Under the pieces are notes generated by a model. It saw only the letters and a program-made list of their open reading frames with translations. It made no database searches and was not told the DNA's origin. The position numbers were made by a program, and so were the translations under genes. From Candidatus Methanoperedens sp. (GTDB taxonomy: Archaea; Halobacteriota; Methanosarcinia; Methanosarcinales; Methanoperedenaceae): 64,000 nucleotides of DNA. The DNA is taken from the NCBI GenBank assembly GCA_028717345.1, contig JAQUNZ010000001.1:1-64000 (forward strand), in the 5' to 3' direction. The first letter of the stretch is position 1. Each line of letters opens with the position of its first letter. This document shows, in pieces, positions 36,237-40,281 of this stretch.

Positions 36237-37109
36237 GATATTGTCAATTTAAAGGGGTATATTTAAATATCTTCATCGCCATATAATCTATTATGGCGGT
36301 CAAAAGAGAAGAGACTCATAAATGTCCAAAATGTGGAAGTCAGGAAAGTGTTTGGAGAGGTTACAGGTACAATCAATCAGGGAAAAAAAGATTGAGAAAA
36401 TGCAAAAACTGTGGATCAAAATTCTCCCCAGATGATGGATTCTTAAGACGACGTTTTAAGAAAGAACACATTGCAGAGGCAGTATCTCTATATCAAAGTG
36501 GTCTTTCATTAAGCAAGGTCAAAGATCACATGTGGCAGCACCATGGAGTAAAAGTATCTCGATGGATGATACTCCTATGGTGTCGTCACTTTTCCAAGGT
36601 AAGAAAAACTATTACTGGGGAGCTAAATACGTTTTCGAAAAAATAAGAAATGGCTGTATAGGTATTCCAAAAAATATCATTACCGATAAGCTTGCTCATT
36701 ATCGCAGAGCCTACAACATGTTTTTCTACAGGTTGCGAGGGAGTTGCAAACTTGTTCATGGTGTTCCTATTGGATGTAAAAAATATGGGCTTGAGCATAA
36801 CAATAATTGTGCTGAACGAGATAATGAGCGTATCAAGCAGAGATATAAAACCACAAGAGGATTTAAAAATTCAGAATCGGGAGAAGATTTATTGAAACTA
36901 ATGGATAATTGTTATAATTTCGTGCATCCACATATGGGATTGAAAGGAAGAACTCCTGCGGAAGAAGCAAACATAGTTTTAAAATTGGGGAGGAATAAGC
37001 TGTTGAATCTTATAAAAATTTTTCACGATTTTGAAATGAAGTATTCAGGGTCAATAAATGCCGAAATTCAAAGATGTGCTATTTTATCTCCCTATAATTA
37101 GACAATATC
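36237..37109 (+). mobile_element. Degenerate IS element with terminal inverted repeats GATATTGTC...GACAATATC
   Basis: 9-bp perfect (about 13 bp imperfect) inverted repeats flank a transposase-derived sequence. Confidence 0.65.
36293..37101 (+). pseudogene. DDE transposase (IS6-like, zinc ribbon + HTH) with internal deletion/frameshift
   Basis: N-part CPKCGSQESVWRGY...CKNCG...SRWMILLWCRHFSK; C-part IITDKLAHYRRAYN...GLEHNNNCAERDNERIKQRYKTTRGFK in a different frame; central region with the first catalytic Asp not found. Confidence 0.75.
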
Positions 37110-37165: not shown

Positions 37166-39832
37166 TTGACATATCAGGCAGGAGTGATAAAAATGGGACC
37201 CAATGAACACAGCACATCAAAGAACTTTCTTTTATCATCCCTCTTCTGGTTGATATTATTCACCACATTCGGCTTCATTCTTGCCGTAAAATTTTTCGCA
37301 CCCGAGTTCCTGGGGCAGACTTCGTTTCTCACTTTCGGACGGGTGCGACCCATGCATGTCAACGGCGTAGCTTTTGGTTTTCTCTCCACAGGGCTTATCG
37401 GCGCAGCATATTATATCGTTCCGAGGCTCACTGGCACGAAGCTATACAGCGAAAAACTGGGAAACCTTACATTCATACTGTGGAACCTCGCAGTTGCATC
37501 GGGTACGGTCCTTCTTGCCCTTGGATACACACAGGCAAGGGAATACGCTGAGTATATCTGGGTAATCGATGTAGCTATAGTGATCACCCTGCTGCTTATC
37601 GGTTATAATATTTTTAAAACGGTGCAGAAGCGGACAGAGCGTAAATTATACGGTTCCTTATGGTACATAATGGGAACGTTTCTCACTTTCCCGATAGTTT
37701 ATTTCACAGGCAACGTGATGTGGCATCCCGACACAGGCTCACTTCAGGGTGCAGTGGACGGGGTCTTTAACTGGTTCTACGGGCATAATGTCCTGGGTCT
37801 CTGGTTCACCACTCTTGGCATAGCAGCCTGGTACTACCTCGTACCGGTCATTACCAGGCGCCCCCTTTACAGCCATATGCTCTCGCTGATAGGCTTTTTT
37901 TCCATTGTTTTCGTTTATACAGGTGTGGGCGGTCATCACCTCCTTCAGGCTCCCATCCCTGAATGGCTCAAGACCGTGGCTGTTGTGAACAGCGGTCTGA
38001 TGATGATACCCGTGCTTGCTTTCATCACAAATATACTTCTTACCATGCGCGGTAGCTGGAACCGTTTTATCGAAAGCATCCCGCTTCGTTTTATCCTTAT
38101 TGGCGCGTTTTTTTATTTCCTTGTCTCAGCGCAGGGCACTTTCCAGGCTATGCGCGATATAAATTCGTACCTGCATTTCAGCCAGTGGCCTGTCGGTCAT
38201 GCGCATCTTGCGCTACTTGGCAGTTTCGGGTTCCTTGTCATGGGCACTATTTATTTTATTATTCCAAGGGTGACAGGCAGGGAAATATTTTCGATGCGCC
38301 TTGCAAGCTATCACTTCTGGTTCACAATACTTGGTTTTTTGTTGTTCTTCGCTTCAATGACTAACCTTGGTCTTATCCAGAGTTCAGGATGGACGCAGAA
38401 CATAACAGTAGCTATCGTGCTCCTTCAATTAAAGCCGCTTTTCATAGTGAGGGCGCTTGCAGGCGGAACGATAATACTGGGGCAGTATATCTTTTTTTAT
38501 AATATGATGATGACCTTCAGGTCAGAACCTTCGACACGACCCACACCTTCGATCACTCCATCTCTTACGATCACAGAACAGAAGAAAGTCGAAAAATACA
38601 GGGAAAGCGCCCCGATTTTCACAATCGGAGCCCTGGGATTGTTCCTTACAATGTTTTTTATCGTTGTGATCCTTCCATATCTTCTCATGAATTATACCCC
38701 CACCGCAATAGCCCATCCTTATTCCGATGAACAGGCAAGAGGCAGGGAGTTGTACAAAAGCAACGGCTGCATATACTGCCATTCCCAGTTCGTAAGACCG
38801 CAGGACTGGGGGCTGGGGAGGACTTCCCTGTCGGGGGATTATTATTATGACCGCCCGCACCTTCTTGGCACTGAAAGGACAGGTCCAGACCTTGCCCAGA
38901 TAGGAGGCGTAAGGCCAAAATTATGGAACGTCATGCATCACAGGAACCCGCGGTCGGTAAGCCCGGGTTCGATCATGCCGAACTTCTCATACCTTTCGGA
39001 TACGGAAATTCACGATCTTGAAGTTTATATTGAGGGACTTGGAAACCGCAACCTCGAAACCCAGGATTTCCAGCCCTTGGTACCAGAACTTTACGCAGGG
39101 AGTAAAAATCCATATGATAGCATTATTGCCAATGCAGGTTCGGACAACCAGAGCAATGCTACCTATGCAGACCTGATAGACGGAGGAAAAGTACTTTTCG
39201 TTCAGCGCTGCCTGCCATGCCACGGAGCATCGGGCAGCGGTCAGGGTCCGTATGCGCGCCACGTAAATACCCATCCTGCCAACCTGAACGACCGGATCTC
39301 GAATTTCCCGGGCAGCAATTATCATTTCTGGCGGGTGATGGAGGGTGTCCCGGGCACAGCTATGCCGCCGTGGAAGCTTTCGCTGACCGAAGAAGCTATC
39401 TGGAATATTATCTCGTATGAGAGAACGTTCGTGGACGGAGTTGTAAGAGTGATTCCGGGTGATTTCTCGGACAGCGAAGCAGAGGATTTCGGGAAAACGG
39501 GGATAAGCTCACCCATTATCCAGGATGAAAAGAATTTCACTGAAGGAAAGAAAATATTCAACCTGTACTGCGCCCAGTGCCACGGTGTGAACGGGCTGGG
39601 GGACGGTCCCGCCTCTGTCTATATCATGCCGGAACCTGCCAATTTCACAGAGACCAACAATGATTTTACCATGCAGGGGCAGTGGTTCTGGAAAGTGAGC
39701 GAAGGTGTGGAGACCACGAACATGCCGCCCTGGAAATACGTGCTGCCAGAGGATGAACGCTGGAAGGCGATTTATTATATCCAGAAGAATTTCTCTGAGC
39801 CTGGTGTCTTTGATACGAAATGGAGGATTTGA
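37166..39832 (+). CDS. ccoNO: cbb3-type cytochrome c oxidase, fused CcoN-CcoO plus two CcoP-like cytochrome c domains
   Basis: CcoN motifs GHNVLG, FVYTGVGGHHLL, WPVGHAHLALLG; CcoO CIYCHSQFVRPQ and RTGPDLAQIGG; CLPCHGASG and CAQCHGVNG heme c sites. Confidence 0.88.
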   Translation: MTYQAGVIKMGPNEHSTSKNFLLSSLFWLILFTTFGFILAVKFFAPEFLGQTSFLTFGRVRPMHVNGVAFGFLSTGLIGAAYYIVPRLTGTKLYSEKLGNLTFILWNLAVASGTVLLALGYTQAREYAEYIWVIDVAIVITLLLIGYNIFKTVQKRTERKLYGSLWYIMGTFLTFPIVYFTGNVMWHPDTGSLQGAVDGVFNWFYGHNVLGLWFTTLGIAAWYYLVPVITRRPLYSHMLSLIGFFSIVFVYTGVGGHHLLQAPIPEWLKTVAVVNSGLMMIPVLAFITNILLTMRGSWNRFIESIPLRFILIGAFFYFLVSAQGTFQAMRDINSYLHFSQWPVGHAHLALLGSFGFLVMGTIYFIIPRVTGREIFSMRLASYHFWFTILGFLLFFASMTNLGLIQSSGWTQNITVAIVLLQLKPLFIVRALAGGTIILGQYIFFYNMMMTFRSEPSTRPTPSITPSLTITEQKKVEKYRESAPIFTIGALGLFLTMFFIVVILPYLLMNYTPTAIAHPYSDEQARGRELYKSNGCIYCHSQFVRPQDWGLGRTSLSGDYYYDRPHLLGTERTGPDLAQIGGVRPKLWNVMHHRNPRSVSPGSIMPNFSYLSDTEIHDLEVYIEGLGNRNLETQDFQPLVPELYAGSKNPYDSIIANAGSDNQSNATYADLIDGGKVLFVQRCLPCHGASGSGQGPYARHVNTHPANLNDRISNFPGSNYHFWRVMEGVPGTAMPPWKLSLTEEAIWNIISYERTFVDGVVRVIPGDFSDSEAEDFGKTGISSPIIQDEKNFTEGKKIFNLYCAQCHGVNGLGDGPASVYIMPEPANFTETNNDFTMQGQWFWKVSEGVETTNMPPWKYVLPEDERWKAIYYIQKNFSEPGVFDTKWRI

Positions 39833-39833
39833 A

Positions 39834-40040
39834 ATGCTTGGAGACCATGTTATGTCAGATGGTTTAATGCCCGGCGACCCTTCGATGTCGCTTGATTATC
39901 TCATAATCCTTATAGCAAGCGCGGTGATACTTATAATATTCCCGATCCTGCTTTACTGGGGATGGAGAAAAGGTCAGTTCAAGGATATTGAAGAAGCAAA
40001 GTACAGGATGATCGAGATGGAGGAGGAACATGCCGATTGA
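39834..40040 (+). CDS. CcoS-like cbb3 oxidase maturation/small membrane protein
   Basis: One TM followed by WGWRKGQFKDIEEAKYRMIEMEEE, resembling CcoS GQFDDLE.P..R; ATG at 39834. Confidence 0.6.
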   Translation: MLGDHVMSDGLMPGDPSMSLDYLIILIASAVILIIFPILLYWGWRKGQFKDIEEAKYRMIEMEEEHAD

Positions 40041-40281
40041 AGTTTCCCAGGCTCAGTTGCCTTCACTTATCCTGCTTTTTGTGCTCCTGGTATCAGTCGT
40101 TATCGCTATTTATCTTGGATTAAAGAGCGGGGATAAATATTCAGTTGAGGATGCAGAGAGCGATGCTGTGAGTTTTGCCGGGGAAGTTACGGAAGCTGAA
40201 GGACCGGTTACGACGTTTCTTAAAATTGCATATATTATCCTTATTTTGTGGGCTGTAGTCTATCTGGCGCTGTATCTGTGA
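40030..40281 (+). CDS. Small membrane protein resembling CcoP/CcoQ TM region
   Basis: Two TMs; E.EGPVTTFLKIAYIILILWAVVYLALYL; overlaps preceding CDS. Confidence 0.55.
   Translation: MPIEVSQAQLPSLILLFVLLVSVVIAIYLGLKSGDKYSVEDAESDAVSFAGEVTEAEGPVTTFLKIAYIILILWAVVYLALYL

Follow-up and report, generated by a model that had tools for sequence, protein, structure and literature searches.

On sequence grounds, the protein encoded at positions 37166–39832 of the window (the whole 64,000-nucleotide stretch of a Candidatus Methanoperedens sp. contig analyzed here) is best classed as a divergent C-type (cbb3) oxygen reductase and not as a canonical CcoNOP enzyme. Most likely it acts as a membrane-bound cbb3-like O2 reductase of the high-affinity type, which would probably let Methanoperedenaceae and some methanogens use or remove traces of O2 where oxic and anoxic zones meet. 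Textbooks describe methanogens and ANME archaea as strict anaerobes. Compared to an earlier note on this DNA, the analysis adds the CcoS-like and detached-anchor neighbors of the oxidase, its distribution including isolated methanogens, a Chloroflexota protein with the same fusion, and purifying selection in all domains.

The oxidase gene is a single open frame of 888 codons on the forward strand, opening with TTG at 37166. Because a Shine-Dalgarno-like AGGAG (37180–37184) lies 8 nt upstream of ATG 37193, and most homologues align from residue 10–13 onward, this ATG is the more likely start and would give a protein of 879 aa (Table 1). Residue numbers in this text follow the 888-residue reading. 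The frame is not a chance one, since the nearest loci, in Ca. Methanoperedens MAGs from several independent projects, encode homologues with 74–90% identity, and the comparison with the nearest orthologue gives a dN/dS of about 0.07 (dN 0.051, dS 0.685). Each domain, taken separately, is under purifying selection as well. Pfam searches identified COX1 (270 bits, residues 19–433), FixO (above its threshold, residues 492–616) and, twice, Cytochrome_CBB3/Cytochrom_C. CXXCH motifs are present at residues 535, 682, and 802, and a helix in the predicted structure (residues 482–508) corresponds to the transmembrane helix of the CcoO-like part. Domains and motifs agree with the description in the earlier note of an 888-aa protein that combines CcoN, CcoO and two extra c-type heme domains.

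Table 1. Features of the oxidase locus (window coordinates; residues in the 888-residue numbering).
Feature	Position	Strand	Remarks
Fused CcoN-CcoO-(heme c)2 oxidase gene	37193..39832	+	ORF opens at TTG 37166, ATG 37193 preferred
CcoN-like subunit I domain, 12 TM helices	37193..38524	+	H60, H207, Y251, H257, H258, H345, H347 conserved; Q323
CcoO-like part: one TM helix and mono-heme c domain (FixO)	38609..39085	+	PF02433, 114.5 bits
CIYCH heme c motif of the CcoO domain	38768..38782	+	Met604 candidate distal ligand
CcoP-like heme c domain 1	39161..39436	+	CLPCH 39209–39223; Met733 candidate distal ligand
CcoP-like heme c domain 2	39524..39790	+	CAQCH 39569–39583; Met853 candidate distal ligand
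CcoS/FixS-like small membrane protein	39834..40040	+	PF03597, 4.7e-7, 29.9 bits (gathering 23.1)
83-aa two-TM protein, putative detached CcoP N-terminal anchor (FixP_N-like)	40030..40281	+	overlaps the end of ccoS
Broken IS element, IS240-type DDE transposase in two frames	36293..37101	+	just upstream, outside the operon

Among PDB sequences, the cbb3 CcoN chains were matched first (E 4e-69 to 2e-61) and CcoO chains next, with cNOR at 4e-8. An AlphaFold model of the protein (mean pLDDT 60, which is moderate, with good values in most membrane helices) was used for a structure search, in which seven cbb3 chains rank first (TM-score by target 0.85–0.88), with NOR (0.81–0.83) and ba3 behind. In an IQ-TREE phylogeny the NorB sequences form a branch apart from the oxidase (100/100), which lies outside the NOR clade; three plasmid sequences were left out of the tree of relatives with residue comparison. 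The phylogeny and the structural model, both proposed in the earlier note as checks, therefore bear out its preference for a cbb3-type over a NOR-type enzyme, as do the C-type residues and the lack of a NOR motif described below. The score against the canonical ccoN equivalog TIGR00780 was 293.5 bits (cut-off 583) and that against the CcoNO-fusion model PRK14485 was 441.6 bits (cut-off 1080). As both scores are far below the cut-offs, we file the protein as a divergent cbb3 oxidase.

Residues of the active site and proton channel were compared in a MAFFT alignment with the CcoN chains of Pseudomonas stutzeri and R. capsulatus. Positions are given in P. stutzeri numbering, with which the numbering of the window protein coincides from residue 207 onward. 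All six metal-ligand histidines of subunit I are present, and the conserved positions comprise H60, E122, E125, H207, Y223, S240, Y251, H257, H258, T293, Y317, H337, H345, and H347, including the serine and tyrosines of the alternative K-channel (S240, Y317, Y223). The spacing of 44 residues that the earlier note measured from the histidine of GHN to the tyrosine of FVYTGVGGHH was confirmed, and the two residues fall on H207 and Y251 of P. stutzeri CcoN. A tyrosine in helix VII is a mark of C-type oxygen reductases, whereas NORs lack the cross-linked tyrosine and carry the motif H-X-Arom-X-E with the FeB glutamate (PMC3084760). In the window protein the position +4 of H207 is a glycine and not a glutamate (H-N-V-L-G). 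A NOR identity is thus rejected by the active-site residues, the tree placement and the PDB sequence matches. Of the positions checked, only E323 deviates from canonical CcoN, being replaced by glutamine. We rejected this as a peculiarity of the archaeal enzyme, as all relatives compared, archaeal as well as bacterial, have Q323, and glutamine was also seen by eye at this position in an Azoarcus plasmid enzyme carrying the annotation cbb3 subunit I. Q323 therefore marks a broad non-canonical group and not the window protein.

An enzyme of the cbb3 family could still have the reduction of NO (or of nitrite to N2O) as its main work, through a side activity protecting an archaeon that reduces nitrate or nitrite. 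NO and nitrite serve as substrates of C-type enzymes in vitro (PMC8780969), and the host lineage is capable of nitrate and nitrite reduction (PMC4683180). We nevertheless consider such a role unlikely, since all O2-reductase residues including Tyr251 are kept and the NOR motif is absent, the genome already has a true cNOR-like NorCB, the same operon is found in methanogens not known to denitrify, and oxygen reductases turn over NO slowly compared with NORs.

The oxidase gene is followed by two small genes (Table 1). The CcoS/FixS-like gene begins 1 nt past the oxidase stop codon, and its homologues in other loci also score above the PF03597 threshold. For the 83-aa protein, the window copy scores 15.8 bits against PF14715 (FixP_N), below the gathering score of 24.9, whereas the orthologue in FeB_1 (locus L007) exceeds it with 26.0 bits; methanogen versions do not reach this score in the Pfam search. 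The match covers the second helix of the protein, and in most of the loci inspected an anchor-like gene sits downstream of the oxidase. Since the long chain ends in the CcoP-like heme domains and a FixP_N-like gene stands apart from it, the simplest reading is that CcoP is split, its heme domains being joined to CcoN-CcoO and its anchor forming a gene of its own. The view in the earlier note of a single CcoN-CcoO-CcoP polypeptide would then hold for the fused heme domains and fail for the CcoP membrane anchor (ORF 40030–40281). In two relatives from the Chloroflexota, separate genes encode CcoN, a CcoO bearing four additional hemes, and a small protein similar to the anchor-like one, which suggests that the split of CcoP may be older than the fusion of CcoN and CcoO.

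In the window, CheR-, MCP-, CheA-, and CheB-like chemotaxis genes are found upstream of the oxidase (about 27.2–34.0 kb). In three Methanolobus-type loci, a gene for an 815-aa P-type-ATPase-like protein (identified by eye) adjoins the operon downstream (L076 11513–13960, L078 5693–8140, L080 10055–12502), and in one Methanoperedens genome (G006; L082 9166–12484) genes resembling those for isoprenoid-quinone synthesis (by eye) come right after it.

The earlier note had proposed a search for ccoGHI assembly genes, which succeeded in part. Two Cu-ATPases (CopA-type) above the TIGR01511 cut-off are encoded in the genome, neither adjoining the oxidase operon, and CcoS was found; in profile searches of the same genome nothing exceeded the cut-off for ccoG and no FixH match was obtained for ccoH. 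The assembly of this cbb3 oxidase would consequently differ from the known route or use unrecognised factors.

Compared to canonical CcoNOP oxidases (P. stutzeri, 3mk7/5djq; R. capsulatus, 6xkw), the window protein shares the CcoN fold, all metal ligands, the helix VII tyrosine, the K-channel residues, the CcoO- and CcoP-type heme domains and the CcoS neighbor. It differs in that the N, O, and P heme domains form one chain with the CcoP anchor apparently in its own gene, in the glutamine at E323, in an identity of about 30%, and in that ccoG and ccoH were not found. The bifunctional cbb3 subunit I/II PRK14485 (NCBIfam NF011053) has the CcoN-CcoO fusion in common with it, but the window protein has two more heme c domains joined to this fusion. 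In the CcoO-cytochrome c fusion PRK14486 (NF011054), CcoO is likewise followed by one or more extra heme c domains; this model lacks CcoN, and the window protein scores 161 bits vs. 447. The cbb3-like clusters of Chloroflexota and Actinomycetota (L016–L030) are the sister clade; they share Q323 and a CcoO fused to heme c domains, and two of them (L016 and L022) have a separate anchor-like protein as in the window operon. In these clusters, unlike in the window, CcoN has its own gene, and the CcoO of Anaerolineaceae carries four extra hemes. The NorB of cNOR has the fold of the HCO superfamily and the six histidines in common with the oxidase, but differs in its H-Y-W-V-E motif, the missing helix VII tyrosine and its separate branch. 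A NorC/NorB-type cNOR of this kind is encoded elsewhere in the host genome (contig C47, about 10.0–12.7 kb; L060 4996–7735), with a gene for a diheme cytochrome c upstream and the FeB glutamate motif H-Y-W-V-E in NorB.

The contig carries archaeal markers, and assignment of the host to the Methanoperedenaceae (ANME-2d), a lineage with Mcr, is supported. The "methanogen-type" host of the earlier note is correct as regards the Mcr lineage and is better named Methanoperedenaceae (ANME-2d), though true methanogens carry the gene too. The oxidase gene was found in about 13 of 34 Methanoperedenaceae genomes (10 full-length copies, 3 fragmentary or split), eight of which also encode an McrA that exceeds the cut-off; the distribution is patchy, with many near-complete Methanoperedens genomes lacking the gene. 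In the genome of the window, the MCR_alpha search gave no match, and a longer McrA model detected short mcrA fragments in contigs C89 (9536–9652) and C18 (6–122), the latter at the contig start. We rejected a loss of Mcr in the host, as the fragments look like contig-end pieces and an assembly break is more likely.

Class-wide, five genomes from a second family of the order and a single genome from a third carry the operon at 55–57% identity, and one Methanoperedens genome (G006) has a copy of this second, methanogen type. No other group carries the fused oxidase among 394 genomes drawn from the phylum, at the search sensitivity used. Two of these genomes belong to isolates: a contig of G141 is 100% identical to a plasmid of Methanomethylovorans hollandica DSM 15978 (NC_019972.1), and a contig of G121 is a plasmid of Methanolobus sediminis (NZ_CP133593.1). 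The oxidase is located on the main contigs of these species (2,428,904 bases in M. hollandica and 2,794,531 bases in M. sediminis), which excludes MAG contamination for the oxidase family.

These data also bear on the question whether the gene is a product of faulty binning or assembly, or was acquired horizontally and is now decaying. A broken IS element lies directly upstream, and the copy of MAG UBA10536 is broken within the last CcoN helix (XII), where the two frames overlap, a pattern more like a frameshift than a border between subunits. Against this, the operon recurs in many independent MAGs and in pure-culture genomes, the latter refuting an artefact, dN/dS is about 0.07 and the contig has archaeal markers; we regard artefact or decay as very improbable. 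On the same grounds of markers and recurrence, a bacterial or chimeric contig was rejected.

In the phylogeny, the fused oxidases form one clade (100/99). The fusion is not exclusive to archaea: a Chloroflexota genome (G821; L131 8119–11436) has the same triple fusion in a three-gene operon with FixS-like and anchor-like genes, on a single contig of 2.09 Mb with dnaG- and sigma-like genes nearby (by eye). As its oxidase groups with the methanogen-type copies (100/98) and G821 is nearly alone with the fusion among 393 genomes of its class, a transfer of the fused oxidase between domains seems likely; the long branches counsel caution. An element-borne copy was rejected, with no viral contig match; plasmid cbb3-like sequences were at most about 39% identical among the matches listed.

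From established cbb3 biochemistry we infer O2 as the substrate, the electron donor, proton pumping and the physiological role. Low-spin heme b would sit in the CcoN domain, together with a heme b3-CuB site that includes the His207-Tyr251 pair. Electrons from menaquinol would probably pass through a Rieske/cytochrome b complex, as described for Methanoperedens (PMC4683180), to c-type cytochromes, and from there via the three fused c hemes outside the membrane and heme b to heme b3-CuB. There O2 would be reduced to water with protons taken from the inside through the K-type channel residues, and proton pumping is plausible. The FixP_N-like protein would supply the CcoP anchor helices, CcoS would help in cofactor insertion, and copper could come from one of the two Cu-ATPases.

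Within the O2-reductase reading, the enzyme might serve only as a scavenger, shielding Mcr and further O2-labile enzymes but supporting no growth by respiration. The hosts are considered strict anaerobes and the distribution is patchy, with the gene missing from many near-complete Methanoperedens genomes; yet the residues of the proton channel and the electron path through CcoO/CcoP are kept as in energy-conserving oxidases, and sequence cannot separate the two. We give this role slightly less than an even chance. More tentatively, some Methanoperedenaceae and methylotrophic methanogens, as Mcr-bearing methane-cycling archaea, might perform energy-conserving micro-oxic respiration with a one-chain cbb3 oxidase and detached CcoP anchor that was acquired and exchanged between domains, which we consider possible but doubtful.

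Full-text searches of open-access literature turned up no report of a cbb3-type oxidase for Methanoperedens or for methanogens, and neither a comparative genomics study of Methanoperedenaceae (PMC7327174) nor a metabolic model of Methanoperedens (PMC4683180) mentions cbb3; the fused oxidase is probably new to the literature on these archaea. An intact C-type oxygen reductase, maintained by selection in many Mcr-bearing genomes, hints at consumption of trace O2 or even respiration, and the cultivable carriers M. hollandica and M. sediminis make this question directly testable in pure culture. The fused chain with its split CcoP offers a compact variant for studies of cbb3 electron transfer and assembly. 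Use of O2, if true, would alter models of methane oxidation at oxic-anoxic interfaces.
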